A stretch of 64,000 nt of DNA from Motilimonas sp. E26 (lineage in GTDB: Bacteria; Pseudomonadota; Gammaproteobacteria; Enterobacterales; CBDFNC01): positions 94,887 to 158,886 of the forward strand of contig NZ_JAIBHJ010000003.1 in NCBI RefSeq assembly GCF_021278025.1, written 5' to 3'. Below are positions 1 through 19,852 of the stretch, one piece after another. Both the position numbers and the translations under genes were made by a program. The notes under the pieces are model-generated. The model searched no databases, had not been told where the DNA came from, and worked only from the letters and a program-made list of their open reading frames with translations. Position 1 is the stretch's first letter; each line of letters starts with the position of its first letter.

Positions 1-223
1 CTCATAGCGCGTTAGCCTGTTTGAATACCAAAGTGATGTTTGATTGCTTTGAGGTAGCGTCGGCTAACGGGCACCTTATGACCAGACCTTGTGGCCTGTG
101 ATTGGTGAGTGATGATACTTACGCAGGTATTGCTATCTCATAGCGCGTTAGCCTGTTTGAATACCAAAGTGATGTTTGATTGCTTTGAGGTAGCGTCGGC
201 TAACGGGCACCTTATGACCAGAC
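1..223. repeat. 87-bp direct repeat at the window edge
   Basis: Bases 1-87 and 137-223 are identical and lie in the same orientation, offset by 136 bp. The second copy is the 3' end of the LytTR regulator gene, covering its last 24 or so codons, the stop and 11 bases beyond. The first copy has the same end, but upstream of it (88-136, minus strand) the reading frame differs: it still encodes a similar Ile-Ile-Thr stretch, then about seven extra residues, and it meets a stop right at the copy boundary. It looks like a remnant of a second LytTR 3' end. Because it touches the window edge, an assembly artefact is also possible. Confidence 0.85.
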
Positions 224-867
224 GGCGTAATAATGTCTGCGCTGGCATTCTCGTGTAGTTGAATTTCTTTGATGGCTTGCTCGGCGATTAGGTATTGCTT
301 GTGGCAGCGTAGTAGCGCACTTTTTTCTTCTAAGGTTTTTAGAGTGAGATGAGTGTGGCTTTGTCCCGCAGCGGTAATGATGTGGATCCCGCTATGATCG
401 CTCATCACATATTCTACTTCCGACAGCTGGATCAGCTTAATGGTGTGGTGATAGTAGCAAGGTAAGACTGTTAAGTTAGGCTTGTCATCAAAAAGCATCG
501 GCTTAGGTGTGTGATCTTGTTTTAAGCGGGTCAGTGTCTGCTGTAAACGCGATACTTCAATAGGCTTTAAAATGTAGTCAAAGGCCTTTTCTTCAAACGC
601 TTTAATGGCGTATTCATCATAGGCGGTAACGAACACTATGCGTGGTAGTTGGTTGTCATCGAGCATGCTGGCGAGTTCAAGGCCGGTGATTTTTGGCATT
701 TGAATATCCAAAAAAATCAAATCGGGCTTGAGTTTATTAATTAAACTCAAGCCGGCAATAGCATTGGCTGCTTCGCCGACGAATTCAAACTCGCTTTCTT
801 GCTCAAGTAAATGCTTGAGTTCATCGCGGGCCAAGGGCTCATCATCAATGATTAAATAACGGATCAT
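148..867 (-). CDS. LytTR-family response regulator
   Basis: Two-component response regulator of the LytTR (AlgR/AgrA/LytR, BtsR/YehT-like) family, 239 aa. The receiver domain spans about residues 1-120, with acidic residues D8 and D9 and phospho-acceptor D54 in LIFLDIQMP. The LytTR DNA-binding domain spans about 133-236 and ends in SGHKVPVSRRYL, typical of the family. Its start codon overlaps the stop of the upstream LytS-type kinase by 4 bases (ATGA), so the two are translated together and are very likely cognate. In enteric bacteria such pairs sense pyruvate or peptides and control transporters; the target here is not visible. The 3' end is duplicated at the window edge. Confidence 0.9.
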   Translation of the reverse strand: MIRYLIIDDEPLARDELKHLLEQESEFEFVGEAANAIAGLSLINKLKPDLIFLDIQMPKITGLELASMLDDNQLPRIVFVTAYDEYAIKAFEEKAFDYILKPIEVSRLQQTLTRLKQDHTPKPMLFDDKPNLTVLPCYYHHTIKLIQLSEVEYVMSDHSGIHIITAAGQSHTHLTLKTLEEKSALLRCHKQYLIAEQAIKEIQLHENASADIITPSGHKVPVSRRYLKAIKHHFGIQTG

Positions 868-2558
868 GAGCGGGGCTCCTTGCTTGTATTTGTTAGGGAT
901 TTGGGTAAGTAAATATTCACTTTAGTGTAAACATTTGGCTCACATTCAATGCTTAAACCATAGTCTTGACCATAGGCATTTTTGATTCGTTTATCGACTA
1001 TGTCTAAGCCCAAACCATCACTGGTTTTGCTGCGATAAAGGCCCGCGTTATCCTGCACACAAAGGCATACTTGCTTTGGGTGTTCGTTTAAGTCAATAGT
1101 GATGCAACCTCCCTCTAGTAAGTGAGAGGTGCCGTGTTTGATGGCGTTTTCAATAATAGGTTGTAAGGTAAAGCAAGGTAAGCTCAGCGAGTAGTCATCA
1201 GGGCTGATATTGATCTTAACGTCAAGCCTGTCGCCAAAACGAGCGCGCTCTATGGCGAGGTAGGCTTCGACATGTTTAAGCTCTTCCTCTAGTCGCGTAA
1301 TGTCACAGCTGCGTTTTAAGTTTTTGCGAAAAAAGTGCGACATAGACAACAGCAGTTCGCGGGCTTTATCCGGATCGGTTCGGGTCACTGCACTGATGGT
1401 GTTGAGAGCATTAAACAAAAAATGCGGATTTACTTGGGCATGAATCAGCTTGAGTTCTGATTCAGTAAGTAAACGCTTTTGTTCTAAAAACTGGCCAAAT
1501 AGGATTTGATTGGAGAGCAATTTTGCAATCCCTTCACCTAAGGTGCGATTGATGTTAAGAAACAATTTATGTTTTGGCTCATAGAGTTTAATGGTGCCGA
1601 CGACTTCACCATCGCCAATGCGTAGCGGAATAATAATTGCTGAGCCCAATCGGCAATGTTTGTCGACACTACACTGATAAGGTAAATTCACGCCATCGGC
1701 AAACACAATTTTGTTGTCTTTGATAGCGCCTAATGTCAATGGTGAGCTGATAGCTCGACCGGGTTTATGGTGCTGATGGCCAATACCAGTGAAGGCTAAA
1801 ATGTGCTTTTTATCGGTGATCGCAACGGCACCGACCTTGGTTTCCTCTAAGATAATATTGGCGATTTGCTCGGCGCTTTGCTGGGTTAATCCCTTGGCCA
1901 TTATTCCTACTGTACGCTCGGCAATCAACATGGCTTTGGCTGAAAATGCACTGGAAAATTTATCAAACATGGCCTTTTGATCGCGGATCATATGCATAAA
2001 CAAAGCGGCGCCAAGGGCGTTGGCTATCAGCATCGGCGGGGCGATAAGGGTGACCAGTTGCCAAGCTTGGGCAAAAGGCTTCGCCACAATAAGGATGACC
2101 GCCATTTGCACTGCTTCGGCGGCTAAGGTGATGAAAAAAGCAATCAAAGGGCTAAATAGGGCTTCTATGTTACGTTTTCGCACTAAGTACAGGTGCAGTA
2201 ACCCCCCCATTAATCCTTCTAAAGTTGTGGAAATAGCGCATGCTACATCGGTAAAGCCCCCCATGGAATAACGATGTAAGCCGCCTGTTAAGCCGACAAA
2301 AAATCCCACCACGGGGCCGCCTAATAATCCGCCCAATACCGCGCCGACGGCACGGGTATTAGCAATGGCATCTTGTACTGCTAAACCAAAATAGGTTCCC
2401 ATGATACAAAAGCTACTGAACACCAAGTAAATAACCACTTTGTGAGGCAAAGACACGGAGATCGAAACCAATGGCTTAAATATTGGCGTTTTACTAAAAA
2501 GGTACGCGATCACCAAAAATACGCTGAGTTGTTGAATCAATGAAATAATAAGCGCCAT
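864..2558 (-). CDS. LytS-type sensor histidine kinase (5TMR-GAF-HisKA)
   Basis: Membrane sensor kinase of 564 aa. Residues 1-190 form the 5TMR_LYT sensor region, including the conserved GGLTGGLHRYSMGG-type loop near residues 86-101. A GAF-like domain follows at about 205-350. The His_kinase domain has the acceptor H379 within NPHFLFN, an N-box QPIIENAIKHG near 466-476, and a glycine box DGLGLDIV. The architecture matches LytS/BtsS (YehU) sensors, some of which respond to extracellular pyruvate; the ligand here is inferred only by family. It is the first gene of a two-gene operon with the LytTR regulator. Confidence 0.9.
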   Translation of the reverse strand: MALIISLIQQLSVFLVIAYLFSKTPIFKPLVSISVSLPHKVVIYLVFSSFCIMGTYFGLAVQDAIANTRAVGAVLGGLLGGPVVGFFVGLTGGLHRYSMGGFTDVACAISTTLEGLMGGLLHLYLVRKRNIEALFSPLIAFFITLAAEAVQMAVILIVAKPFAQAWQLVTLIAPPMLIANALGAALFMHMIRDQKAMFDKFSSAFSAKAMLIAERTVGIMAKGLTQQSAEQIANIILEETKVGAVAITDKKHILAFTGIGHQHHKPGRAISSPLTLGAIKDNKIVFADGVNLPYQCSVDKHCRLGSAIIIPLRIGDGEVVGTIKLYEPKHKLFLNINRTLGEGIAKLLSNQILFGQFLEQKRLLTESELKLIHAQVNPHFLFNALNTISAVTRTDPDKARELLLSMSHFFRKNLKRSCDITRLEEELKHVEAYLAIERARFGDRLDVKINISPDDYSLSLPCFTLQPIIENAIKHGTSHLLEGGCITIDLNEHPKQVCLCVQDNAGLYRSKTSDGLGLDIVDKRIKNAYGQDYGLSIECEPNVYTKVNIYLPKSLTNTSKEPRS

Positions 2559-2929
2559 AGTGCGATTTTTACCCCGTTTGAGCTTAATGCGTTGTCAACG
2601 CCAAGAAATAAATAGGAAAAGGGAAGTCATCTAGGATTACTTAATCTTACAACAGCTTTGTTTATCACTTTGTTAAATAGCCCGCATAAAACCCTATCGA
2701 TACTGAGTTTTACTGTGCCTTGTTAGTTCGAAATTTGTTCATAAAATTAATAAAAACTAAAACTGGCTTGCAAATCAGGCGCTGATTGGTATTTTGTCAT
2801 CTCGGCTTGCGCTGAATTATCTACAAATAACCAATGTCGGATTGGTTAAACGATAGGCGAGGCAAAGGAATATGTGTTTCTTTAAGGCCTCATTTTTCAA
2901 TCCTAAACAAATTTTAAGTTGGGTTTATC
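2559..2929. other. Divergent intergenic region lytS / aroF
   Basis: This 371-bp gap separates the divergent lytS-like and aroF genes, so it must hold both promoters. A 13-bp palindrome GCGTTGTCAACGC lies at 2589-2601, about 30 bases before the lytS start. I looked for TyrR boxes (TGTAAA-N6-TTTACA) and found none. A short Phe-rich open frame (2872-2949) runs into the aroF start. No RNA gene is apparent. Confidence 0.5.
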
Positions 2930-2949
2930 ATGCAAAAAGACAGTATTAA
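2872..2949 (+). CDS. Possible Phe-rich leader peptide before aroF
   Basis: A 25-codon open frame starts with ATG at 2872 and overlaps the aroF start (2930) in another frame. It opens MCFFKASFF, so four of its first nine codons are Phe, and it holds two Tyr codons and one Trp codon later. An AAAGGA sits just before the ATG, but the spacing is only about two bases, which is short. aroF itself has a poor ribosome binding site, so translation of this frame could couple to aroF. No terminator hairpin follows it, so classical attenuation is not supported. It may be chance. Confidence 0.2.
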   Translation: MCFFKASFFNPKQILSWVYHAKRQY

Positions 2950-4003
2950 TAACGTTCACATAAGTTCAGAACAAGTTCTGATCACGCCAGCAGAGTTAAA
3001 AGCGAAACTACCTGTATCAGACAAAGCGTTACAATTTGTGCAAGATGCACGTAACACCATTTCTGATATTATTCATGGTAAAGATCATCGCTTATTGATC
3101 GTCTGTGGTCCTTGTTCCGTCCATGACCTAGACGCTGCTAAAGAATATGCCTATCGTTTAAAGAAATTGCATGATGAATATAAAGACACTCTGTATATCG
3201 TAATGAGAGTGTATTTTGAGAAGCCAAGAACCACCGTTGGTTGGAAAGGCTTTATCAATGACCCACATATGGATAATTCATTTGATGTTGAAACAGGTTT
3301 GCACCTAGGTCGTGAATTATTGGCTTGGATCGCTGAATTAGAATTACCTGTAGCGACAGAAGCGTTAGACCCGATTAGCCCACAATATTTAGCTGAACTA
3401 TTCAGCTGGTCAGCCATTGGCGCGCGTACGACTGAATCACAAACCCATCGTGAAATGGCCAGCGGTCTATCAATGCCTGTCGGCTTTAAAAATGGTACCG
3501 ATGGCAGCTTAGCGACAGCCATTAATGCGGCGCAATCGGCGGCGGCGTCACACCGCTTTATGGGGATCAACCAAGAAGGTCAAGTAGCACTGCTACAAAC
3601 TCAAGGTAATCCAGATGGTCACGTTATTTTACGTGGCGGTAAGCAGCCTAACTACGATTCGGTAAATGTTGCGTTAGCTGAGCAAGAAATGGAAAAAGCG
3701 GGCTTACGTCCTGCCATTATGGTCGATTGTAGCCATGCTAACTCAAGTAAAAATCATGAGTTACAGCCTAAGGTTTGTGACAATGTGATCAGTCAAATTC
3801 AAGCGGGTAATCGCTCGATTATTGGTGTGATGATTGAAAGCCATATTAATGCAGGCAATCAAAGCGCTGATTTACCACGTGAAGAAATGAAGTATGGTGT
3901 ATCAGTGACAGATGCCTGTATCGATTGGGATACCACGGCTGAGTTGTTAAAGAAAACCAATGACAATTTGGTTGCTCCGCTAAAAGCGCGATTAGGTCAA
4001 TAA
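2930..4003 (+). CDS. aroF: DAHP synthase, tyrosine-sensitive type (class I alpha)
   Basis: 3-deoxy-7-phosphoheptulonate synthase, 357 aa, which condenses PEP and erythrose-4-phosphate in the first step of the shikimate pathway. Visible motifs are GPCSVHD, the [11 protein letters not shown] loop, [20 protein letters not shown] and the metal-site DCSHANS. The N-terminus [11 protein letters not shown] closely follows E. coli AroF, including Asn8, which is involved in tyrosine feedback. Together with tyrA immediately downstream (11 bases), this supports the Tyr-regulated isozyme. The Shine-Dalgarno is weak. The aroF-tyrA order is that of enteric bacteria. Confidence 0.95.
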
Positions 4004-4014
4004 TAGGTAAGCTT

Positions 4015-5148
4015 ATGGCGCATCCACTAGATAATTTACGCAACCAAATAGATTCTGTCGATCAGCAGTTGGTTGATTTATTGGCGCAACGGCTCGCTTT
4101 GGTTGCGCAAGTCGGTGAGGTGAAAACCGAACACGGCTTGCCAATTTATGCACCCGATCGCGAAGCGGCTATGTTAGCGAAAAGGCGTGAAGAGGCAGAT
4201 AAAAAAGGGGTACCACCTGATCTGATTGAAGATATTTTACGCCGCACCATGCGTGAATCTTATGCCAGTGAAAATGATCACGGCTTTAAGATAGTGAATC
4301 CGCAGTTGCGTAATATTGTTGTCATCGGTGGTGGCGGCCAGCTTGGTAAGTTGTTTGTTAACATGCTGCGCTTGTCTGGTTATCAAGTGGATGTGCTAGA
4401 AAAAGACGATTGGCAGCGCGCTGACGACTTACTCGGCAATGCCGGTTTGGTCTTAGTGGCGGTGCCAATTGAAATTACCCAAGAGACCATTGCGCGGTTA
4501 GGTAATTTACCCAAAGATTGTATTCTAGCGGATATTACTAGTACGAAATCAGGCCCTTTACAGGCGATGCTGGATGTACACTCTGGTCCAGTGGTTGGCT
4601 TGCACCCTATGTTTGGCCCAGATATTTCAAGTTTTGCTAAGCAAGTGATTGCTTACTGTGATGGTCGAGATGCGCAGCAATACCAGTGGTTGATTACCCA
4701 AATGCAAATTTGGGGGGCACGCTTGTATCGCACTAGTGCTCAGGCACATGATGAAGCGATGACTTTGATTCAAGCATTGCGCCATTTCACTAGTTTCGCT
4801 TACGGCGTGCACTTGGAATCGGTCAATGCTGATGTGAAGCAATTACTTGAGTTATCATCGCCAATTTATCGCTTAGAGTTAGCGATGGTTGGGCGCTTGT
4901 TCGCGCAAGATCCTGAGCTCTATGCTGATATTATTATGTCGAATCCAGACAACCTGAAGATGATCCAAGCTTATCATCATTCCCTAGGAGAGGGCGTGAA
5001 GTTACTTGAAGCGGGAGACAAAGAAGCTTTTGTCGCATCGTTTAACCGGGTAAGTGATTGGTTTGGTGATTATGCGCAAATGTTTATGAAAGAAAGTAAG
5101 GCGCTACTCCAGCAGGCTCATGATAGTCGTCACTATCAAGAGGATTAG
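4015..5148 (+). CDS. tyrA: Bifunctional chorismate mutase / prephenate dehydrogenase
   Basis: T-protein of tyrosine synthesis, 377 aa, close to the 373 aa of E. coli TyrA. The AroQ chorismate mutase domain is at about residues 1-90 ([18 protein letters not shown]). The NAD-binding prephenate dehydrogenase domain begins at about residue 100, with [12 protein letters not shown] as its nucleotide loop and GLHPMFGPD holding the catalytic His. It turns chorismate into 4-hydroxyphenylpyruvate. The start has an AGG-containing ribosome site 7 bases upstream. A strong terminator follows the gene, closing a two-gene aroF-tyrA operon. Confidence 0.96.
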
Positions 5149-5221
5149 TCAGTAACCTGTACTCTGGATAAGCATAAGAATATATTTCCCTATACGCTTT
5201 GCGCTTTCATCTCTGAAAACG

Positions 5222-5247
5222 AAAAAGGAGTCTTTGGCTCCTTTTTT
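5222..5247 (+). terminator. Rho-independent terminator of aroF-tyrA
   Basis: The arms AAAAAGGAG (5222-5230) and CTCCTTTTT (5238-5246) pair around a 7-base loop, and the run of T residues forms the tail. It lies about 75 bases after the tyrA stop. The A-rich left arm lets it also act for the convergent minus strand, although no gene ends just there. Confidence 0.85.
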
Positions 5248-5281
5248 CATTTTTATCTTTTGAAAGAGTGTCTTATTAAAG

Positions 5282-6124
5282 CTAGTGGTTGGTTTTTGTA
5301 CAGCCTAAATCAAACTTGCTTAGCTTGGCTTCGATATCAATAATCTTACGTTTGTAAGTGCCTTTCACGAATTGGTAGTCCAGCTCTGGTGCAAACCATA
5401 AATACAGCTTGCGGTCTTTCTTTTTGATTTGTTGAACTTTGATGGTGCGATAGTTTTTACCTAGTATATTAAGCTCTTCTTCACCGACAACACTGAAGTA
5501 GTAATGGCCTAATTCATCACTCTTTTGCATCAGAAAGTCGAATTCTTTCGTGTTGTTTATCAGGTTTTGACGCATTTGTGCGGAAATAGCCTCAAAGTCT
5601 AAAATGGGTTGATTGAAATCAGAGTACTCAGTTTTTTCATCATTCGCGGTGACTTTACTGACTAAGCCATTATCACTAAACCACGCACTGACTTTTGTAT
5701 CTGTTAAGCCCTTTACTTCTTGTTTAAATTCTCGGGTTAGATATTGCTGTTGTGTATTGCTCCAGTACACCTTAGATTGATGTTTACCGGTGAAGTTGAA
5801 CATTAAAAATGACACTTTACCTGAGGTTGTCATGTCAGCTTGTTGCCGCTGCCATTTTTGTTGACGATGAATATTTCCGACATGACTGTTTTTGTAAAAA
5901 AATTGATAGCTGAATGAGTTAGTACAACCTGTGCTGGTGGTACTTGACACCTCGGTTGTGGCACCAGGACTCTGTTGTTGAGTTTGGCTTGTTGTGATTG
6001 TTTCGTTGTCTGCTAATGCTGCGTTGGCTTGCATGGTCAATGTCATGCAGCAGGCTAACAGGCTTGCTTTGCTGTAACTCAATAATGGAACGAATGCGCC
6101 CTTTGAGGTGTTAAGTAACCACAT
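5282..6124 (-). CDS. DUF3108 family exported protein
   Basis: An exported protein of unknown function, 280 aa. The N-terminus has a signal-like hydrophobic stretch (about residues 12-38, ending near QANA/ALA). A Ser/Thr/Gln-rich linker follows, then a DUF3108-like beta-rich domain from about residue 70 (SYQFFYKNSHVG) to the end. This resembles the family by pattern: a YxxxYKxxxxG opening and a DYxxVKGTYKRK ending. It starts 17 bases after the pheA stop with AGGAG at a fair distance, so it is probably cotranscribed with pheA. There is no metabolic link I can name; the assignment to DUF3108 is from memory of the fold pattern. Confidence 0.7.
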   Translation of the reverse strand: MWLLNTSKGAFVPLLSYSKASLLACCMTLTMQANAALADNETITTSQTQQQSPGATTEVSSTTSTGCTNSFSYQFFYKNSHVGNIHRQQKWQRQQADMTTSGKVSFLMFNFTGKHQSKVYWSNTQQQYLTREFKQEVKGLTDTKVSAWFSDNGLVSKVTANDEKTEYSDFNQPILDFEAISAQMRQNLINNTKEFDFLMQKSDELGHYYFSVVGEEELNILGKNYRTIKVQQIKKKDRKLYLWFAPELDYQFVKGTYKRKIIDIEAKLSKFDLGCTKTNH

Positions 6125-6141
6125 AAATTTTTGGCTCCTGC

Positions 6142-8052
6142 CTATTCGTTATGCTTTTTTAGGTTGTTCACTTGCTTACTCAATGCGCCTAACCGTTGTA
6201 ATTGCGTTGACTCATTGGGCTTAGTATCAATAATAGAGCCATTTAAACCTAATGCATATAAGTCTTTATTAAATAAAAGAAACTCATTGTCGGTTATGTC
6301 GCCAAAGGCATGCACTAAAATGGGCAATGATGTATGCGCTTTTAAGCGGCAAGTTTGCATTAAATTTAGTTGGGTGTGCTCTCCTTGGTATTGGCCTTGT
6401 TCACATAGTAATACTTGTTGGTTTCCTTGCTCCATAATGGTGGTTGCACAGCTAAGCCAATTATCGTTATTGGCTGTTTTTCCTCGCACTAAAATAACAG
6501 GCCGGTGCTGACGGCCCAGTTGTTCTAACAGCTCGCTGTTATGCATTTGGTCACCCGCAACATAAAGTAAGTCGGCATATTTGGCGGCGTTATTAAGCTC
6601 ATGTAATTGGTGCACCGGTAAAATGAGTAATATGTTAAGAGCCTTTGCCCGTTGCTGGCATGCCTGCCATAGCCCTTGTTGGTTTTGGTTTGAATGGGTT
6701 GTATCTTGGTTAATTAAAATGGCCTGTGCACCGGCATTTTTCAGCTGCTGTGCTTGGTTGGCAAAATCATCTTCATTAATTACTGTGGCACATGCAATTA
6801 GGTTAAATTTTTGATTGAGTCGACTGAGTGCCGCCGAGTGCGATTCGTTATCTGGCACAGGTGTTACCAATTCGGCACTGTGATGAATTTCAGCCAGTTG
6901 GGCACCGGGCACCTGAGTCGCTTTTACTTCATTACTTGGGTAGCAGCCAAGCACTTTGAGATATTGAGTTTGTGGGGTTATCTCGGCTAATGCTTGTGAC
7001 ATGGCTGGGCTGTCTAAATTAGCCGCTAGATCAATATAAAACATTTCCTCCCAAGGATTGCCTTGGATTGGGCGTGATTCTAGCTTAGTCATGATCAGGT
7101 TATATTTTTTAAACACACTTAAAACGTTGAGTAATGCGCCAGCTGTTTGCCCCGTTGCCAGTACTAAAGTGGTTTTAGCAGGAATTTGACTGGTCACGTT
7201 AATGGCTTTGCGCGCCACCAAAATAAAGCGACTAAGGTTTTCTTGTTGGTTAGTGATATGATTTTTTATGTTAACCAATTCAGTGCAAAACTCTTCTTCA
7301 ATATTGCAAATAACCGCGGCGTGAGCGTTGTTTTTTACTTGCTCGGCGGCTTGGGCACTGGTTAGGGTATAAACAATATTTATGTTGTCTAGCTGTTGGA
7401 TGAAGTGGCTAGATTGCTGTGCTACTTGTGGCGTGCAGTACAAGGTATCAATTTGCGTTATTGGCAATTCACGGTTGGCGTACAAGGCATATTCGGTATT
7501 AACGACAATTTCACCGACGATAGATAAGCGAGTGTGTTGCAACAGATCGTAAACTTCATTAATGCTGCCTGCACTGGTATTTTCGATCGGTAAAATGGCG
7601 CAGTCAGCGCAACCTTGTTCTACTTCTTGTATGGCTTGTTGAAAATGTTTACATGGCCATTGCACTAGGGTTTTACCTTGGCGATTGATGTACTTGATAC
7701 CAGCGAATAAACTTTCAGTTTCAGCGACAAAGGCCAGCTTGATTTGTGGCAGGCTATGCTCAGGGTTAACTAATTGCTGCAGGTAAACTTGTTGAGAGCG
7801 AACCGAGTCTTCTAAAATTGTGTGATATATTTCAGTGATATAGTGTGCGTCTAAGCCAAGATCTTTACCTTGAATAATTAGCCGCTCAAGTAATGCTTGC
7901 TCACGCTCTTGGTCGCGTACTGGCCTTGGATTAGCCTGTTTGCTGCGAGCCACATCAAGGGCAATGGCTTTTCGTTTCGCTAATAAGGTTAATAAATCAC
8001 TATCGAGTTCTGTGATGGTGCGTCTAATTTCTTCTAAGTCTAAGCTAGCCAT
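6142..8052 (-). CDS. pheA: PheA chorismate mutase/prephenate dehydratase with extra C-terminal DAHPS-like domain
   Basis: P-protein of phenylalanine synthesis, 636 aa against 386 in E. coli. Domains: AroQ chorismate mutase about 1-90; prephenate dehydratase about 103-280 (PIENTSAG at 155-162, SRF at 274-276 where TRF is usual); ACT about 293-372 with GAL (305-307) and ESRP (325-328), the Phe-binding motifs. The extra part, about 412-620, aligns by eye with type I-beta DAHP synthase (ADLLYVAGDQMHN, PVILVRG, EQGNQQVLLCEQG), but the GPC, DPSH and EVHP catalytic motifs are replaced. That domain is probably non-catalytic. The gene lies downstream of raiA, with a terminator between them, and upstream of a DUF3108 gene. 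Confidence 0.93.
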   Translation of the reverse strand: MASLDLEEIRRTITELDSDLLTLLAKRKAIALDVARSKQANPRPVRDQEREQALLERLIIQGKDLGLDAHYITEIYHTILEDSVRSQQVYLQQLVNPEHSLPQIKLAFVAETESLFAGIKYINRQGKTLVQWPCKHFQQAIQEVEQGCADCAILPIENTSAGSINEVYDLLQHTRLSIVGEIVVNTEYALYANRELPITQIDTLYCTPQVAQQSSHFIQQLDNINIVYTLTSAQAAEQVKNNAHAAVICNIEEEFCTELVNIKNHITNQQENLSRFILVARKAINVTSQIPAKTTLVLATGQTAGALLNVLSVFKKYNLIMTKLESRPIQGNPWEEMFYIDLAANLDSPAMSQALAEITPQTQYLKVLGCYPSNEVKATQVPGAQLAEIHHSAELVTPVPDNESHSAALSRLNQKFNLIACATVINEDDFANQAQQLKNAGAQAILINQDTTHSNQNQQGLWQACQQRAKALNILLILPVHQLHELNNAAKYADLLYVAGDQMHNSELLEQLGRQHRPVILVRGKTANNDNWLSCATTIMEQGNQQVLLCEQGQYQGEHTQLNLMQTCRLKAHTSLPILVHAFGDITDNEFLLFNKDLYALGLNGSIIDTKPNESTQLQRLGALSKQVNNLKKHNE

Positions 8053-8067
8053 ACTGTTTCCTGAATA

Positions 8068-8093
8068 TAAAAAAACCTCCCAGAGGGAGGTTT
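8068..8093 (-). terminator. Terminator between raiA and pheA
   Basis: On the minus strand the arms AAACCTCCC and GGGAGGTTT pair around a 3-base loop, followed by seven T residues. It ends only 15 bases before the pheA start, next to AGGAAACAG, the pheA ribosome site. It may end raiA, or act as a read-through control for pheA. E. coli has the pheL attenuator at this place, but the 37 bases between the raiA stop and this hairpin have no Phe-rich leader frame. Confidence 0.85.
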
Positions 8094-8130
8094 ATTATGT
8101 CGTTTTTATTAATATTTACCAAATTGGTTT

Positions 8131-8469
8131 TTATGCGGCGGCTTCTGTCTCTTCTTCTACGACGCGCTTATGTATAGCAGTGCGTTGGGCATTCGGTTTA
8201 TCAACGTGTTTATGCAGCTGTTTTTCTAGCTTTTGCCCCAGCTTATTAATGGCACAGTACAAATCATCATGGGTAGCAGTGGCAAATAAATCTCCGTTGG
8301 GAATGCCGATAGATGCTTCAATTTTAAAGCCTTTTGGCTCTTGAGTAATGATGAAATGTGGTTTGATTAACGGTAGCTGCATTTTTTCTAATCGGTCATA
8401 ACGAGCGCTTATTTTTTCACGCATTGGGGTAGTGATAGCCATATGTTTACTAGTAATTTCTATAGTCAT
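8131..8469 (-). CDS. raiA: Ribosome-associated inhibitor / hibernation factor
   Basis: Short HPF/RaiA-family protein, 112 aa, like the 113-aa E. coli RaiA (YfiA) and not the long HPF. It binds the 30S decoding region of idle ribosomes and blocks translation in stationary phase. Typical features are the opening MTIEITSKHMAIT, IGIPNGDLFATATHDDLYCAINKLGQKLEKQL in the second half, and an acidic tail VEEETEAAA. The GGGGC-type ribosome site is good. A CRP-like palindrome lies about 78 bases upstream of the start, in line with CRP control of raiA known in E. coli. Confidence 0.93.
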   Translation of the reverse strand: MTIEITSKHMAITTPMREKISARYDRLEKMQLPLIKPHFIITQEPKGFKIEASIGIPNGDLFATATHDDLYCAINKLGQKLEKQLHKHVDKPNAQRTAIHKRVVEEETEAAA

Positions 8470-8886
8470 AAATAATGCCCCTTTTTGATAACTATTTTCT
8501 GTTGCTCCATTTCAGGTTACGACTTTATAGAAATAAAAAAGTGATCTTGATCACTCTTTGTCATTACAAAGAGAATAAAGAAATCATTTTATGATCTGGT
8601 CTTGTTTCTGCTGCAGAATATCTTTTTTGTCCTTGTTTTAAGCTAAGGGGTGTAGCAGTATCAATAAGGATAAGGTGGTGCTGCAGCAAGGCGTGCCTGT
8701 GCAATAAATCACTCTTCTGATTAAGATCGTTTTGAGATATAGCTCCTCAAAGTAGGTGAAGTGGCGATTGTTTAGTCAGTTCTTTCTCTTTCTTGCTGTA
8801 TTAATCATATTAACTACATTTTCTCACCTAATTGATGTGTGGCTAAGTTAATATAATAGTATTAAAGTTCTAAAAGCTATTGGTAT
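8470..8886. other. Divergent intergenic region raiA / GGDEF-EAL gene
   Basis: This 417-bp gap contains the raiA promoter region, including the CRP-like site at 8540-8555, and the start region of the GGDEF-EAL gene. The last 60 bases before 8887 are very AT-rich. I see no RNA gene, no convincing open frame and no terminator here. Confidence 0.5.
8540..8555. promoter_or_regulatory. CRP-like binding site upstream of raiA
   Basis: AGTGATCTTGATCACT keeps the core GTGA-N6-TCAC of the CRP consensus TGTGA-N6-TCACA as a perfect inverted repeat; only the outermost bases deviate. Its centre is about 78 bases before the raiA start codon. E. coli raiA is known to depend on cAMP-CRP, so the position makes biological sense. 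Confidence 0.6.
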
Positions 8887-11800
8887 ATGTTCAAAGGATT
8901 ATTTAACAAGAAGGCTGGCCATATTACTAGTGAAGAAAGCCATCATTTAGACTCTTCTCCCGAGCAAACTACTAGTAGCAAGTTAGTCGACTCTCGCTCA
9001 GATGCTAACCCGTACGAAGGGCAATGCGTTTTTTGGTATTGGGATTTTGCAGATGACAAGATTTATTTTCAAGGTTGCAATTCCACTAAACTGGCCAAAA
9101 TTACCGCACAATCATCCCTAAAGAGCAGTGAACTTATTGCGTTTGTTTGTCCAGAAGATAGAGCCACATTTCGCGTTTTTTTAGACGAAGCTTGGCGTGG
9201 TGAAGCGCCTGCGCCACTTGAATATCGAATGCTCAGCCCGGAAGGCGAGGAATTTTGGGTGGTGACTATGCTCAGTCAGCCCATATTTGATGGTTTAAAC
9301 AAGCCGAAAATCTTGGCGACAACAACCGAGCAAACTTTATATCGCAGTGCCAATGAATACCGTCAACAGCAAAATAACTTATTATTACATTTAGCGACCG
9401 ATCCGGCTTTACATCAAGGTGACAGTGCTAATTTTTTTGCCCACTTGGCGGAGCATTTAGAGCCTGTTTTTCAGCTGCAACACATTAGTATTTGGATTGC
9501 TAACGAGACTTTGTCTTCGCTTACTTGCGTTGAGTATTCTGGTGATGGCTTTGGCAAACTCGGCGAGGTATTACTACGTCAAGATCATCCCAGTTTTTTT
9601 AAGTCCGTTGCTGAAAACAAAACCATAGTGGCCAGCGATATGGCTTTTGCTCCCCATACCCAAAGCTTAGATGTCCCCCAACATATTAGTTCTAGTATCC
9701 AAACCAGTATTGTTTCTGAAGGTGTGGTTAAGGGGGTTATTTTATGTCAGTCCGCTGGAAAAATGCGTCAATGGAGTATTGATGAGCAAGCATTTTTAAA
9801 ATCTGTGGCGGCGTTGGCGGCGCGAGTGATGGAAATGGCGCAACGTGGACTGCAGGAAAAAGCGCGGCTACAGCGTGAAGGATTGATTGATATTATTGCC
9901 AGTGCCATTTCGGCTGAAACGGGACAGGGCTTTTTTAATGCATTGGTTAGTGAATTAGCGAAAGCATTAAAAATGCGCAGCGTGATGTTGTGCGAGATTG
10001 AATCGGAATATACCGCGCGTACGTTAGCGATGGTGGAAGATGGTGAACTGCAGCAAAGTATGATTTTTTATACCGCAGGCACCCCTTGCGAGAGAGTGGC
10101 CAGTGCGGGACCGCAGATTTTTAAAAGAGAGGTGGGAAAATACTATCCCGATTGTGGTGAATTTGTTGATTGGCCAGTAGAAGGATATGTTGCTTGGCCG
10201 TTGATTAATGGTCGCGAGCATATTATTGGTTACTTGGTATTAATGAGTGACGATGTGATTGTGGATGAAGCCAATGTAAAAGTGTTGCTGCAAACATTTT
10301 CCTTACGGGCGTCGGCAGAGCTGGTACGTAAACAAGACGAAGCACAATTAAAGCTTTCTGCAGTGGCGTTTGAAACCAACGAAGGTATCATTATCGCTGA
10401 CCCTAATGCTTTGATTTTAAGGGTTAATTATGCTTTTACGGAAATAACAGGCTATGCTGCTGATGAGGTAGCAGGGCAAGACATTAGCATCCTAAATGGT
10501 GAGCGTCGTAGCGACCAAGATATTTCTTTGTCACAGAAGTTAGATGAAGAAGGAAAATGGAGTGGTGAGTGTTGGCGGTTACGCAAAAATGGCGAGCTGT
10601 ATCCACAATGGGAAACCATTACTTCAGTGCGTGATGATGACGGCAACGTAACCCATTATGTTATTTGTTTTGAAGATATGTCAGAGCGTAAAGCTGCTGA
10701 AAAGCGTATTGAAAATCTTGCTTATTATGACGAGTTAACTGGCCTACCTAATCGACGCATGTTACTTGAAAGTTTGTCTGATGCATTTGAACATGCTCAG
10801 GCGCACAACATGATAGGTGCTTTACTGTTTATCGACTTAGATCATTTTAAAACCATTAATGATTCTTTAGGTCATGCCGCTGGCGATTGGATTTTAGAGC
10901 AAGTGGCAAGTCGATTACGTAACATGATCCGCGATGGCGACATTTTGGCCCGTTTAGGTGGTGATGAATTTGTGCTGCTGCTACCGGATTTGTCTGAAAA
11001 CCCACCTCATGCTGAGCAGCAAGCTAATATTGTGGGTGAGCGCCTCATCCAGATCGTTTCTGCGCCGTATCATTTTGGTGAGCAGATACTTCATATTGGT
11101 GCGAGTGTGGGCATCACGCTATTTCCAGGTAAAAAACAAAATGCCAGTGACTTGTTAAAGCAAGCGGATACAGCCATGTATCAAGCCAAATCAGCAGGGC
11201 GCAAAACCTTAATGTTCTTTGATATGGACATGCAAAAGCAGGCGGATAAACGCTTAACTATCCATAATGCGCTGCGCTCAGCGATTGAGAAAAATGAATT
11301 ACTGCTGCATTTCCAGCCTCAGCATATGGTTAAAACGGGCGAAATAGTTGGTGTTGAAGCCTTAGTACGCTGGCAGCCGGAAGGTAAGATGCTGATCAGT
11401 CCGGTTGAATTTATTCCCATTGCTGAAGAAAGCGACTTGATCATTGAAATTGGCTATTGGGTGTTACTAGAAGCATGTAAACAGTATATGAAGTGGGTCG
11501 AGCAGGATATTCAGTTGCCGCAAATCGCAGTGAATGTTAGTGCAAAGCAGTTTCACCATGTTGATTTTGTTGAGCAAGTAGAAGAAGCGTTGCACTTATC
11601 TGGGATGGAGCCAAGCTACCTTAACCTTGAAATTACTGAATCTGTGGTGCTTGGTCATGCCGAAGAAACTATCCGTAAAATGACGCTGTTAAAAGAAAAA
11701 GGTATTAGCTTTTCAGTGGATGATTTTGGTGCAGGTTACTCTTCTTTATCTTATTTGAAGCGCTTACCGGCTGATGAGCTTAAAATTGATCGTTCCTTTA

Positions 11801-12024
11801 TTCGTGATATTCCACGCGATGCCAGTGATATGGCCATTGTTGAGGCGGTTTTGGCCCTTGCCAAGCATATGGGGTTTAGTGTAACTGCTGAAGGTGTGGA
11901 AACTCGTCAACAGTTAGAGTTTTTACAAAAGCAGGAATGTAACTTCTACCAAGGGTATCTTGCCAGTAAGCCAATCACGGGCGATGCCATTGTCCGTTAT
12001 GTGAAACGGCTAAAAACCATCTAA
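8887..12024 (+). CDS. Cyclic-di-GMP protein with GAF, PAS, GGDEF and EAL domains
   Basis: A cytoplasmic 1045-aa protein with no membrane segment. From the N-terminus: a PAS-like segment (about 45-150, starting CVFWYWDF), two GAF-like regions (about 165-315 and 325-480), a PAS domain with PAC (about 485-605, ITGYAADEV), GGDEF (about 610-775) and EAL (about 790-1040). GGDEF is intact at 691-695 and has an I-site RxxD at 682-685, so synthesis with product inhibition is possible. EAL is intact (EAL 824-826, DDFGAGYSS, KIDRSFI), so hydrolysis is also possible. Which activity dominates cannot be read from sequence. The ribosome site is weak. It is monocistronic. Confidence 0.92.
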   Translation: MFKGLFNKKAGHITSEESHHLDSSPEQTTSSKLVDSRSDANPYEGQCVFWYWDFADDKIYFQGCNSTKLAKITAQSSLKSSELIAFVCPEDRATFRVFLDEAWRGEAPAPLEYRMLSPEGEEFWVVTMLSQPIFDGLNKPKILATTTEQTLYRSANEYRQQQNNLLLHLATDPALHQGDSANFFAHLAEHLEPVFQLQHISIWIANETLSSLTCVEYSGDGFGKLGEVLLRQDHPSFFKSVAENKTIVASDMAFAPHTQSLDVPQHISSSIQTSIVSEGVVKGVILCQSAGKMRQWSIDEQAFLKSVAALAARVMEMAQRGLQEKARLQREGLIDIIASAISAETGQGFFNALVSELAKALKMRSVMLCEIESEYTARTLAMVEDGELQQSMIFYTAGTPCERVASAGPQIFKREVGKYYPDCGEFVDWPVEGYVAWPLINGREHIIGYLVLMSDDVIVDEANVKVLLQTFSLRASAELVRKQDEAQLKLSAVAFETNEGIIIADPNALILRVNYAFTEITGYAADEVAGQDISILNGERRSDQDISLSQKLDEEGKWSGECWRLRKNGELYPQWETITSVRDDDGNVTHYVICFEDMSERKAAEKRIENLAYYDELTGLPNRRMLLESLSDAFEHAQAHNMIGALLFIDLDHFKTINDSLGHAAGDWILEQVASRLRNMIRDGDILARLGGDEFVLLLPDLSENPPHAEQQANIVGERLIQIVSAPYHFGEQILHIGASVGITLFPGKKQNASDLLKQADTAMYQAKSAGRKTLMFFDMDMQKQADKRLTIHNALRSAIEKNELLLHFQPQHMVKTGEIVGVEALVRWQPEGKMLISPVEFIPIAEESDLIIEIGYWVLLEACKQYMKWVEQDIQLPQIAVNVSAKQFHHVDFVEQVEEALHLSGMEPSYLNLEITESVVLGHAEETIRKMTLLKEKGISFSVDDFGAGYSSLSYLKRLPADELKIDRSFIRDIPRDASDMAIVEAVLALAKHMGFSVTAEGVETRQQLEFLQKQECNFYQGYLASKPITGDAIVRYVKRLKTI

Positions 12025-12229
12025 CCTCTTTCTCTCGTCATATATAGGGGATTTTAGCTTTTACGGTTAAGATCCCAGCAATCTGTTACAAGAATGCCGA
12101 TCTGGTTTCAACTTAGCGTAAAGATGATTGCATTTCACCTTTGATTAGCTATGGTTGAATGAAACATTTACAGTTGATTTAATTAACTGTTTTTATATCG
12201 TTTCAATACCTTAAGGTGTATTACTTGTG

Positions 12230-14083
12230 ATGCAAATTCGACTGACTTGGTGTTGCCTGTGGTTGGGCTTAGCCGCCCCATTTTCTTCTTTTGCAACCAC
12301 TTCTGATCTTCCTCCCCAACACGGCATTGCCATGCATGGTGACTTAAAGTATCCAGCTGGTTTTAGTCATTTTGATTATGTTAATCCCGAGGCTCCTAAA
12401 GGGGGGACGATGCGCCAAGCTGCGCGAGGAACCTTTGATTCATTTAATCCATTTATTGTCAAAGGAACCTATGAGAGTGGGCTGATCACGGCTTATGGTA
12501 ATTTTTTGATTTATGACACCTTAATGGTTCGATCTGATGATGAACCATTTTCTAAATATGGCTTGATTGCTGAAGGGATTAACGTTGCCGAGGATTTTAG
12601 TTCAACGACATTTTATTTAAATCCAAAAGCGACCTTCCATGATGGTCACCCGATTACCAGTGAAGATGTGATTTTCAGTTTTAATACCTTAATTGAGCAA
12701 GGCAACCCGCAATATAAATCCTATTACGCTGGGGTTGATCAAGTGACTGCGATAGATCCCCTTACGGTCAGGTTTGACTTTAAACCTGGCGATAATCGCG
12801 AGTTGCCACTTATCTTAGGTGAGCTGCCAATTTTACCTAAACACTACTGGCAGCAACGTGATTTTTCTCGCTCAAGCCTAGAGGTGCCCCTTGGCTCGGG
12901 GCCTTATAAAATAGCCTCGTTTGATGCCGGGCGTAAGGTGGTTTACCAGCGTGTTAAAAATTACTGGGCCGCTGATTTAAACGTTAACAAAGGACGGCAT
13001 AATTTTGATCGCTTAGTGTTTGATTATTTTCGTGATACCACGATAGCTTTCCAGGCCTTTAAGGCTGGGGTATTTGATTATCATCAAGAGTATTCTGCCA
13101 AAAACTGGGCCACGGCTTATACCGGCGAAGTGTTTGATAATAAAAAAATTATTCGTCGTTTAGTAGATGATGCCAACCCGCAAGGCATGCAAGGCTTCTT
13201 TTTTAATTTACGTCGTGACAAGTTTAAATCGCGGGAAGTGCGTCAAGCCATAGGTTTAATGTTTGATTTTGAATGGTTAAATCGGCAATTTTTCTATGGC
13301 GCTTATACCCGCAGTGACAGTTTTTTTGCCCATTCAGAACTAGCAGCAACGGGCTTACCCAGCCCTGCTGAGCTTGCTATTCTTGAGCCATATCGAAAGC
13401 ATTTACCTGAAGATGTGTTTACTCAAGTTTACCAACCACCCGCGACTCAAGGTGACGGTAACATTCGGCCACAAATGCGCCAAGCAGTGGCTTTGATGGA
13501 ACAAGCGGGTTACCAACTTAAAAACGGAAAGATGCTGGATAAGCAGGGTAATCAGCTGTTCTTTGAATTTTTGGTTTATGACAAAAGTTTCGAGCGAGTT
13601 ATCCAGCCTTATCGCCGTAACTTAAGTCGCATTGGCATTGCTAGCGAAATTCGTTTAGTTGATGTATCCCAATATATTAATAGGCTAAATAGCTTTGATT
13701 TTGATATCACCACTATACGTCAGGGGCAGTCCATTTCACCGGGAAACGAGCAACCAATCTATTGGAGCTGTGACGCGGCCAGTACGCCGGGCTCTCGCAA
13801 CTATGCCGGCTTATGTAATCCTGTTGTTGATGAATTAGTGCAACAGCTGATTCGTTCTAATACTCGTGAAGAGCTTGTGCTGCGTACTCGGGTGTTAGAT
13901 CGGGTGTTGCAGCATCTGCATTTTGTGGTGCCGCAATTCTACAGTCCCTCGGATCGAATTGCGTATTGGGATAAGTTTAGCCAGCCAAAGATAAAGCCTG
14001 CTTACGCTATTGGTTTAGATACTTGGTGGGCAAAAGAGCAGGGTGCGCTATTAAGCCATTCCAAGGAGGATGCCCATGAGTAG
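12230..14083 (+). CDS. yejA: Periplasmic oligopeptide-binding protein, YejA type
   Basis: Family 5 extracellular solute-binding protein, about 617 aa from ATG 12230; a GTG lies one codon earlier. It has a signal peptide (about residues 1-22, ending SSFA). YejA-type landmarks are [29 protein letters not shown] and [13 protein letters not shown] near the mature N-terminus. It delivers peptides to the YejBEF inner-membrane complex encoded next. In other bacteria this system takes up microcin C-like peptides and, in alphaproteobacteria, murein peptides. Its 3' end overlaps yejB by 8 bases, and the yejB ribosome site lies inside it. Confidence 0.9.
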
Positions 14084-15164
14084 TTATATTTTTCGCCGTT
14101 TATTACTGATGATCCCAACCCTCATTGGTATCATGACCATTAACTTTTTTCTTGTTCAAGTCGCGCCTGGTGGACCGGTTGAGCAAGCCATTGCGAAAGT
14201 TCAGGGAATTGGCGGCGATGCCACTAATCGCATGGGAACGGGTAATAGCAGTGAGTTGATGACCCGAAATACCCAAGCTAATGCAAGTTATCGCGGCGCC
14301 CAAGGCATCGACCCTGAATTTATAGCTCAACTTGAGCGCCAGTATGGTTTTGATAAACCGTTGCTTGAGCGTTATTTTATGATGTTATGGAATTATGCCC
14401 GCTTTGATTTTGGTGATAGTTTTTATCGCGATATTAAGGTCACTGATTTATTACTTGAAAAAATGCCGGTGTCGATTTCGTTGGGGTTATGGACTACTTT
14501 GTTGGTTTACTTAATTTCTATTCCTCTTGGTATCAAAAAAGCTTCTCGGCATAACTCCCAGTTTGATATATGGACCAGTACGCTAGTGATTACGGGTTAT
14601 GCGATTCCCGCTTTTTTGTTCGCTATCATGTTGATTGTGGTCTTTGCGGGGGGGACCTACTTTAGCTGGTTTCCCTTGCGTGGTTTAACTTCTGACAACT
14701 TTGACCAGCTTAGTTTAGTTGGCAAAATAACTGACTATTTCTGGCACCTTGCCTTGCCGGTTACTGCCTCCGTTATCGGCAGTTTTGCCGCGTTAACTAT
14801 GCTGACAAAAAATGCCTTTTTAGATGAAATTGGTAAGCAATATGTGGTGACGGCTAAGGCCAAAGGTTGCACTGAGAAACGCGTGTTGTATGGGCACATT
14901 TTTCGTAATGCCATGTTGCTGGTGATAGCGGGTATGCCAGCCGCGCTGATTGGTATTTTTCTCACCGGCTCGATGTTGATAGAAGTGATTTTCTCTCTTG
15001 ATGGATTAGGTTTATTAGGGTTTGAGTCGGTGGTGAACCGGGATTATCCAGTGATTTTTGGTTCGCTCTATATTTTTACCTTAGTGGGACTCTTGCTGAA
15101 ATTGGTCACGGATATAGCCTATACCATCATTGACCCTCGAATTAACTTTGCGGAGCGCAGCTAA
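14076..15164 (+). CDS. yejB: Peptide ABC transporter permease YejB
   Basis: Inner-membrane permease of the DppB/OppB class, about 362 aa. The N-terminal membrane helix is [22 protein letters not shown], and the EAA-like loop [31 protein letters not shown] is present. I place the start at ATG 14076, because AAGGAGG (14063-14069) is 6 bases from it and directly abuts the ATG at 14070. The long loop after the first helix, rich in Gly/Asn, is typical of YejB. The gene overlaps yejA upstream and yejE downstream. Confidence 0.92.
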
Positions 15165-16207
15165 TGATGAAGTGGTGGAGTGAAGTTAAAAGTAACCCTA
15201 TTAATCAGCGTCGTTGGCAGCAGTTTCGCGCCAATAAACGCGGTTACTATTCGTTATGGATTTTCGTGTTTTTATTTGGTCTGAGTTTATTTGCTGAAGT
15301 CATCGCGAACGATAAGCCGGTGTTAGTGTATTACCAACAGCAGCTGTTTATGCCGATTATAAGTGATCATCCTGAGACGACTTATGGTGGTGATTTTGAT
15401 ACTTGGACCGATTTTAGTGACCCTTATATTCAACAGCAGATTAATCAAGATGGATGGATGGTGTGGCCGTTAATCCCATTTTCATATGATTCTATTAATT
15501 ACGCGTTAACTGAGCCAGCCCCATCGCAACCCGATAATGTTAATTGGCTGGGCACCGATGATCAAGGTCGTGATGTGGTGGCGCGCCTGATTTATGGTTT
15601 TCGTATTTCGGTGTTATTTGCGCTTGTTTTAACCCTTTCCAGTTCGGTTATTGGCATTACGGCGGGGGCGATTCAGGGCTATTACGGTGGTTGGGTTGAT
15701 TTGCTAGGTCAGCGATTTATTGAGATTTGGGAAGGCTTACCCATGCTGTTTATGCTGATTATTTTAGCCAGTGTGGTGCAGCCTAACTTTTGGTGGTTAT
15801 TAGGGTTAATGCTGCTATTTAGTTGGTCTAGTTTAGTCAGTGTGGTACGAGCGGAATTTTTGCGCGGCCGAAATTTGGAATACATCAAGGCAGCAAAAGC
15901 GTTAGGAGTGAAAGATCGGGTGATCATGAGTAAGCATATTTTACCCAATGCGATGATCGCGACCATGACCTTTATGCCTTATGTATTTACCGGTGCGTTA
16001 ACCACCTTAACCGCATTGGACTTTCTTGGCTTTGGCTTGCCGCCGGGCTCTGCCTCACTAGGAGAAATGGTGGCTCAGGGGAAAGCTAATCTGCAAGCGC
16101 CTTGGTTAGGTATAACGGCGTTTGTTTCTTTATCGACTATTTTAGTGCTGCTGGTTTTTATTGGTGAAGCGGCTCGCGATGCCTTTGATCCGAGGAAAGC
16201 ATTATGA
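15164..16207 (+). CDS. yejE: Peptide ABC transporter permease YejE
   Basis: Second permease subunit, DppC/OppC class, 347 aa. After one N-terminal helix there is a periplasmic loop ending in NWLGTDDQGRDVVARLIYGFRIS, the OppC-type signature. The EAA loop is EFLRGRNLEYIKAAKALGVKDRVIMSKHILPNA. Its ATG overlaps the yejB stop by one base (TAATG), and its own stop overlaps the yejF start (ATGA). All spacing in this operon points to coupled translation. Confidence 0.93.
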   Translation: MMKWWSEVKSNPINQRRWQQFRANKRGYYSLWIFVFLFGLSLFAEVIANDKPVLVYYQQQLFMPIISDHPETTYGGDFDTWTDFSDPYIQQQINQDGWMVWPLIPFSYDSINYALTEPAPSQPDNVNWLGTDDQGRDVVARLIYGFRISVLFALVLTLSSSVIGITAGAIQGYYGGWVDLLGQRFIEIWEGLPMLFMLIILASVVQPNFWWLLGLMLLFSWSSLVSVVRAEFLRGRNLEYIKAAKALGVKDRVIMSKHILPNAMIATMTFMPYVFTGALTTLTALDFLGFGLPPGSASLGEMVAQGKANLQAPWLGITAFVSLSTILVLLVFIGEAARDAFDPRKAL

Positions 16208-17820
16208 ATGAGACCCCAGTGACAAAGATGACAAAGCCAGTGATGACAGATCAGCCGCTATTAATTTTAGATAAGCTTTGCGTCAATTTTGCTGATAAAG
16301 CCGTGGTGCAAGAAGTGAGTTTTAAGCTAGCTCGTGGCGAAACCCTAGCGATAGTGGGCGAGAGTGGTAGTGGAAAATCGTTAACAGCATTGTCTATTTT
16401 ACAATTACTGCCAAATGGTGCTTATCACCCGCAAGGGCGAATTCAGTTTGCCCATATTGATGTATTAGAGCAATCTGACGTGGACATGCAACAGCTACGC
16501 GGATCGCGCATCAGTATGATTTTTCAAGAGCCAATGACGTCCCTTAATCCACTGCATACTTTAGGCAAGCAATTAGCCGAGGTACTTTGGTTACATCAAG
16601 GCTTAACGTATCAGCAAGCCATGCCACGAATGCTGGAATTACTTGAGTTGGTTGGTATTCAAGATGCGCAGCGCCGTTTAGGTCATTATCCCCACGAGCT
16701 ATCTGGTGGTCAGCGCCAGCGCGTGATGATTGCGATGGCGTTAGCCAATGAGCCCGATTTATTGATTGCAGATGAGCCTACTACCGCGCTTGATGTGACG
16801 ATACAAAAGCAGATATTAGAGTTACTAAAAGACTTGCAAGCCAAGCTTGGCATGGCCATTTTATTGATTACCCATGATCTCAATATTGTGCGCCATTACG
16901 CCGAGCAGGTGGTGGTGATGTGTCAAGGTAAGGTGGTAGAGCAGGGCGCCGCACAGGGTGTGTTTAAGTCACCGCAACATGAATACACCCAATGCTTATT
17001 GTCTGCAGTGCCGACAGGAAAAATGGATGCTCTAGTGGCACCTGAGCCGATTTTATCAGCAGATGATATTAAGGTTTGGTTTCCTATTAAAAGTGGTTGG
17101 TTTGGTCGCGTTCATGACTACTTTAAGGCCGTTGATGGTATCAATTTAACTTTAAACAAAGGGGAAACCTTAGGCATTGTCGGTGAAAGTGGCTCAGGTA
17201 AGAGCACTTTGGCACAGGCCATTCTTGGATTAAATAGCAGTCAAGGTCGAGTGACTTACCTAGGCCAGAGGCTTGATGGTAAAAACTCTGCACAACTTGC
17301 TCCTTTACGTAAAGAAATACAAATCGTGTTTCAAGATCCATTTGGCAGTTTAAGCCCGCGAATGTCGGTACAACAAATTGTCAGTGAAGGTTTACTGGTA
17401 CATGAGCAGTTGAGCAACAATGAAGTGGCGGCGCGGGTGCGTGATGTGCTGTTGGAAGTGGGGTTGGATGAAAAGGCGGCGCAGCGTTATCCTCATGAAT
17501 TTTCTGGTGGCCAACGCCAACGTATCGCGATTGCAAGAGCCATCATTTTAAAACCCAAATTAATTGTGCTAGATGAGCCTACTTCAGCGTTAGATCGTAC
17601 GGTGCAAAAACAGATTATTGAATTGTTAAAAAAACTACAGCAAAAGTATCAGTTAAGTTATTTATTTATTAGTCATGATCTTGCTGTAATCCGCGCCCTA
17701 TGTCATCGTGTCATGGTGATGCAAGGAGGCAAACTAATAGAAGAGTCAGATGTAAATTCATTATTTAGTCAGCCAAAATCTGACTATACTCGCAACTTGT
17801 TATCAGCAGCATTAATTTAA
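16204..17820 (+). CDS. yejF: Peptide ABC transporter ATPase YejF (two fused ABC domains)
   Basis: Fused ATPase subunit, 538 aa, with two ABC modules. Each has a Walker A GESGSGKS, and signature motifs LSGGQRQR and FSGGQRQR with Walker [13 protein letters not shown] and [12 protein letters not shown]. Both halves appear catalytically intact. In Dpp/Opp systems the two ATPases are separate proteins, so fusion is diagnostic of YejF/GsiA-type systems. It is the last transporter gene and is followed after 26 bases by slt. Confidence 0.94.
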
Positions 17821-17846
17821 TTTTTCAGGACATTTAGGAGAGACGT

Positions 17847-19751: not shown

Positions 19752-19793
19752 ACATAGTTGTACATACAGTTGAAATGGATACTTTGTGAATAA

Positions 19794-19823
19794 TAAAAAA
19801 GGCGCTCGATGAGCGCCTTTTTT
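19794..19823. terminator. Bidirectional terminator between slt and pilE
   Basis: GGCGCTC (19801-19807) pairs with GAGCGCC (19811-19817), flanked by six A residues on the left and six T residues on the right. It can therefore serve both the plus-strand yej-slt operon and the minus-strand pilE gene. Confidence 0.9.
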
Positions 19824-19852
19824 GCAAAGTGATGATAAGTAAAAGAAGCTTA

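Follow-up and report, generated by a model that had tools for sequence, protein, structure and literature searches.

A decayed type I-beta DAHP synthase domain on the P-protein of Motilimonas sp. E26 and its probable descent from a trifunctional enzyme

The PheA protein (P-protein) of E. coli is a textbook bifunctional, allosteric enzyme. A longer version has been described in Shewanella, where Song et al. 2005 (PMC1173090) noted a decayed C-terminal tail that they called 'bizarre', considered to be of unknown origin and designated an 'aroA I-beta pseudogene'. The decayed fusion itself is thus already known, as an earlier note on the present DNA had anticipated in remarking that the fusion need not be new. 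The open-access literature yielded no reports of a DAHP synthase pseudoenzyme or of a trifunctional chorismate mutase/prephenate dehydratase/DAHP synthase (CM/PDT/DAHPS), and no experimental report on intact CM-PDT-ACT-DAHPS-beta proteins. As far as this literature was searched, four elements are new: trifunctional relatives that are still intact, a single origin of the fusion, E. coli PheA as its probable descendant and a doubly eroded P-protein.

The window analyzed here is the whole stretch of 64,000 nucleotides from Motilimonas sp. E26, and its pheA gene (6142..8052, minus strand) encodes a 636-aa protein in which CM, PDT and ACT domains are followed by a type I-beta DAHP synthase-like tail. 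The CM domain occupies residues 1-95 (7768..8052, minus strand; CM_2 E=9e-20), the eroded PDT domain residues 100-285 (7198..7755, minus strand) and the phenylalanine-binding ACT domain, with an intact ESRP motif, residues 290-378 (6919..7185, minus strand). A fast-evolving linker of low AF2 confidence (residues 379-411; 6820..6918, minus strand) leads to the tail. Besides the CM_2, PDT and ACT order, the gene shares its neighborhood with E. coli pheA: comparison with the E. coli locus revealed the same neighbors, raiA and tyrA (4015..5148, plus strand), the latter encoding a chorismate mutase-prephenate dehydrogenase. The match to PRK10622, the bifunctional CM-PDT P-protein, reaches 406 bits, under the curated cut-off of 577 bits. 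In the full-length AF2 model (pLDDT 80), the CM helices, PDT and ACT domains are followed by a disordered linker (383-411) and then by a barrel, and the best structural matches for the PDT and ACT part are PDT folds. The window PheA and the E. coli P-protein are orthologues that occupy the same locus. Between tyrA and pheA, in a slot that is empty in E. coli, lies a gene for a DUF3108-like protein (5282-6124, minus strand; E=3e-5, below the cut-off). A third chorismate mutase domain, in addition to those of PheA and TyrA, is encoded by a 141-aa ORF (G000:C56:187345-187578).

The tail comprises residues 412-636 (6145..6819, minus strand), and the earlier note, working from the letters alone, had aligned residues 412-620 (6193-6819) with type I-beta DAHP synthases. 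Profile searches bore out this resemblance, as the tail matches TIGR01361 DAHP_synth_Bsub (E=7e-22; its 78 bits fall far under the curated cut-off of 267.75 bits), PRK08673 (E=9e-21) and PF00793 (E=3e-13, exceeding the gathering score). The top phmmer matches in the PDB are exclusively type I-beta DAHP synthases (5j6f with E=1e-13, 4c1k, 1zco, 4grs). An AF2 model of residues 386-636, built with 53 relatives in the alignment (pLDDT 85.6, pTM 0.85), has eight strands alternating with helices. The best PDB folds found for it by Foldseek are the DAHP synthases of P. furiosus, T. maritima and A. pernix and CM-fused enzymes of Geobacillus and others (TM 0.70-0.75, E about 1e-12 to 1e-14; 1zco E=4e-14). 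Residues ~412-620 of PheA are thus a type I-beta DAHP synthase barrel.

We scored 16 active-site positions in 152 DAHP synthase domains, including 79 stand-alone enzymes, 48 fusions from the order of the window and 25 fusions from outside it. The window tail keeps 3 of the 16 positions and has lost 13, compared with 15-16 kept in the stand-alone type I-beta enzymes (one truncated fragment excepted). All four metal ligands are gone, Cys having become T (A in an alternative alignment), His G, Glu D and Asp R, and the Lys of KPRT, the Lys of LKRG, the Arg of CERG, DPSH and EVHP are missing as well. These residues support catalytic death of the tail as a DAHP synthase, in agreement with the earlier note, which had considered the catalytic residues replaced or lost; neither outcome that the note had named as refuting its reading, a fold search lacking DAHP synthase or TIM-barrel similarity or full conservation of the catalytic residues, was obtained. 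Among the 48 scored fusions of the order, 45 keep 0-12 positions and three (L038, L040, L045) keep all 16; at least four further fusions of the order are known by ORF length only and stand outside this count. The cell does not depend on the tail for DAHP synthesis, since the genome encodes three DAHP synthases, all of type I-alpha, and in this lineage it is these separate enzymes that would make DAHP. One of them is the intact AroF (2930..4003, plus strand), by contact with which, as the earlier note suggested, a pseudoenzyme might link phenylalanine synthesis to shikimate entry. Control of shikimate entry by a pseudoenzyme that binds the DAHP synthases of the cell would fit the location of aroF 2 kb away and has a parallel in the non-covalent CM-DAHPS complexes known in Mycobacterium (PMC4281200). 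However, the DAHP synthases of the genome belong to the other subtype, and the tail is missing from many relatives, including E. coli, with at least eight deletions among them, leaving the proposed link unsupported and, in our estimate, very improbable.

Although dead, the tail evolves under purifying selection. Between the window and its congener G037, dN/dS is 0.011 for CM, 0.030 for PDT, 0.013 for ACT, 0.36 for the linker and 0.077 (~0.08) for the tail, which is the fastest-evolving folded domain of the protein. Decayed tails of other families have values of 0.06 (f6), 0.005-0.04 (f10) and 0.19-0.24 (f25), giving a range of 0.005-0.24 for pairs from four families. The residues that decayed tails retain (G441, G513, P518, G543, N544, Q546, P577, G605) sit in the AF2 model just before strands 2, 5, 6, 7 and 8, on the barrel face opposite the active site; most of them are also conserved in active enzymes and so may be mere fold markers. 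Gln546, located in a GNQQ turn preceding strand 6 (residues 543-546; 6415..6426, minus strand), is shared by 47/47 of the decayed tails, by 19/23 of the intact fusions and by 14/79 stand-alone enzymes, suggesting that a structural or inter-domain role has been retained. The tail could instead be a non-functional leftover drifting to deletion, its low dN/dS reflecting only the avoidance of misfolding of the useful N-terminal half. Its rapid evolution relative to the other folded domains, the at least eight independent deletions and the barely recognizable tail of the congener G057 (17% identity to that of the window) fit such slow disposal and count against a scaffold. However, none of the fused copies examined is interrupted, dN/dS is 0.04-0.08 in three families and a Gln specific to the fusions has been kept by all 47 decayed tails, and we consider a mere leftover rather unlikely. 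The dead barrel would most likely be a structural or oligomeric scaffold on which the mutase-ACT unit still depends.

In each of the four genomes of the window's genus, the P-protein is accompanied by a second PDT protein, a stand-alone PDT of 282-298 aa. As a reference, we used 53 PDT columns that are near-invariant across 44 other fused PheAs. The P-proteins of the genus have lost 16-22 of these columns (16 in the window), compared with 3/29 in CM and 2-3/29 in ACT, where nearly all losses are conservative. The Gly-Gly-x-Ser-Tyr (LGxxGSYS) loop and the His of HPQ are lost in all four species, the His being replaced by Thr in the window, whereas the loop Gly and Tyr and this His occur in 44/44 other fused PheAs. 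The Asn of PIEN is lost in two species. Identity between the window and G012 is 95% for CM, 60% for PDT, 93% for ACT and 61% for the tail; the corresponding values for G057 are 76%, 35%, 70% and 17%. Judged against 946 reference pairs, the PDT identity residual has z = -5.7 to -8.0 in the five divergent pairs. We dropped the TRF-to-SRF change as a PDT defect, as SRF also occurs in relatives with an otherwise intact PDT.

From its residues, this second enzyme domain of PheA also looks dead in the genus, suggesting the loss of dehydratase activity. It might instead be divergent yet active, with the stand-alone PDT serving another role: PIEN and SRF remain in both the window and G037, so that some activity would be possible, and dN/dS is 0.03 in the closest pair. 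Against this stand the absence from all four species of the GSYS loop and of the His of HPQ, the loss of PIEN in two, the restriction of erosion to the PDT domain and the tail, and the conservation of the stand-alone copy, which is 72-93% identical within the genus with all motifs present, while the P-protein PDT falls to 35%. We regard an active P-protein dehydratase as unlikely; its activity would have shifted to the stand-alone enzyme, after which the PDT domain of the P-protein would also have decayed. A stand-alone prephenate dehydratase gene (L086; G000:C44:5897-6436) adjoins a sigma-factor (rpoH-like) gene, and its product shares 51-57% identity with the one dehydratase detected in family f12, where no P-protein turned up.

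Unlike PDT and the tail, the CM and ACT domains are strictly conserved in the genus. Alignment to 1ecm showed that the CM catalytic residues R10, R27, K38, D47, R50, E51, S83 and Q87 are present in the window, including the equivalents of E. coli Arg11, Arg28, Lys39, Arg51, Glu52 and Gln88; Lys39, which is reported to be essential in E. coli CM (PMC10520331), corresponds to Lys38. The CM activity of E. coli PheA is inhibited 55% by phenylalanine (cited in PMC10520331), and therefore ACT control of CM alone is plausible, by analogy, in the window PheA. What remains of the protein would be a chorismate mutase linked to an ACT domain that senses phenylalanine, along with two enzyme domains that are dead. 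The pheL leader peptide, present in many relatives, is absent upstream of the window pheA, and an Rfam scan of window positions 1-20000 gave no matches, thus no curated Phe leader; Phe attenuation of the gene may have been lost. Directly upstream of pheA there is a hairpin followed by a T-run (8071..8093, minus strand). This terminator-like element persists 20 nt before the ATG despite the missing pheL and is immediately preceded by a promoter-like TTGGTA-17-CATAAT (both within 8050-8132, minus strand), and the two elements are conserved in the congeners G037 and G012.

When 84,980 genomes were scanned with four fused proteins as queries, single ORFs with PDT-ACT-DAHPS, mostly also with CM, turned up in Ignavibacteriota, Acidobacteriota, Planctomycetota, Myxococcota, Krumholzibacteriota, KSB1, an actinomycete MAG and others. 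Pfam confirmed CM_2, PDT and DAHP_synth_1 (the latter with E about 1e-76 to 1e-80) in three of these, and 23/25 fusions from outside the order of the window keep all 16 DAHPS residues. No fusion was found elsewhere in the Gammaproteobacteria among 42 strong I-beta matches in 274 genomes. Most fusions from other phyla are MAG sequences. Whole ORFs of apparently intact CM-PDT-ACT-DAHPS-beta proteins (L090-L106) come from Ignavibacteriota, Acidobacteriota, Planctomycetota, Myxococcota and others. Two MAGs, one from Planctomycetota and one from Myxococcota (L108 and L111), also carry a PheA with a decayed I-beta tail and, unless misbinned, represent decay outside the Gammaproteobacteria.

In the DAHPS tree, the trifunctional tails (27 rows) form one side of a branch with support 100/99, recovered in 100% of bootstrap trees, and the same result was obtained with a larger tree containing the window tail, which lies on the fused side (100). 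The window PheA is thus a four-domain single chain with its tail inside the fusion-specific DAHPS clade. Since the tails form one clade, these computations show that the CM-PDT-ACT-DAHPS-beta fusion arose once. PDT-ACT-DAHPS-beta chains without CM from Calditrichota and Gemmatimonadales MAG(s) (L107:4971-6686, L112, L113:2369-4189) are independent, convergent fusions, their DAHPS grouping in the stand-alone clade.

The tree of the CM-PDT-ACT part, with SH-aLRT supports only (inner ones moderate, several under 90), a distant outgroup and a taxon set whose unfused CM-PDT proteins are all gammaproteobacterial, has a long branch (100) parting upper-gamma PheA from the trifunctional proteins and lower-gamma PheA. 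The trifunctional side holds lower-gamma PheA both fused and unfused, including that of E. coli itself, and the two kinds interleave by family. The AU test rejects a topology that holds all unfused PheAs together and so implies a single tail loss (p-AU 0.0002). When the tree is rooted on upper-gamma PheA, the tail must have been lost at least eight times and activity at least nine times. This interleaving and the rejection of a single loss are therefore most simply explained by the E. coli P-protein being a truncated trifunctional enzyme, and it is probably such a descendant. Several fusion origins, with an E. coli-type PheA that never had a tail, would be in line with the convergent chains without CM, but the single clade of all CM-PDT-ACT-DAHPS tails and the interleaving of PheAs with and without a tail make them quite improbable.

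Descent from one trifunctional fusion is thus the scenario that we favor. Its ancestor would have been a CM-PDT-ACT-DAHPS enzyme with a type I-beta barrel, whose catalytic face was lost while fold and purifying selection persisted. We consider it somewhat more probable than its negation that the E. coli-type P-protein came from this enzyme, its DAHPS domain first dying and then being repeatedly deleted, and that the genus of the window is an intermediate with a dead dehydratase as well, a Phe-sensing CM scaffolded by two pseudoenzymes. The explanation of the window protein as a whole, a Phe-responsive CM with two pseudoenzyme domains, descended from a trifunctional enzyme and keeping the dead barrel as a scaffold, receives our modest preference, a shade firmer. 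If E. coli PheA is indeed a truncated trifunctional enzyme, its ancestor carried out the first and the late committed steps of phenylalanine synthesis on a single chain, and living intact relatives make it possible to test how the domain logic and Phe control of E. coli PheA came about. In the order of the window, one enzyme domain on the same fusion partner can be followed through intact, half-eroded, dead and deleted states, a natural series useful for asking why a pseudoenzyme is kept, and the 'bizarre pseudogene' of 2005 becomes a tractable question.

Among known systems, the aroQ-pheA of Shewanella oneidensis (PMC1173090) has the same domain order and degenerate I-beta DAHPS tail as the window. 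It was described as a pseudogene of unknown origin in Shewanella, whereas here the tail is found in several families, under purifying selection and with intact homologues; the dehydratase domain is additionally eroded in the genus of the window. The E. coli P-protein (386 aa) shares the raiA-pheA-tyrA locus and the CM-PDT-ACT core, but has no tail, an intact dehydratase and a pheL leader, in contrast to the tail, eroded PDT and missing pheL of the window. Type I-beta DAHP synthases (TIGR01361; T. maritima, P. furiosus, CM-fused Geobacillus) have the same TIM-barrel fold and resemble the window tail in sequence over ~200 residues, but the tail lacks all metal and most PEP/substrate residues and scores 78 against 268 bits. 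Finally, Bacillus AroA(Q) likewise combines CM and I-beta DAHPS in one chain; however, its CM is directly N-terminal to an active DAHPS with neither PDT nor ACT, an architecture different from that of the window PheA.
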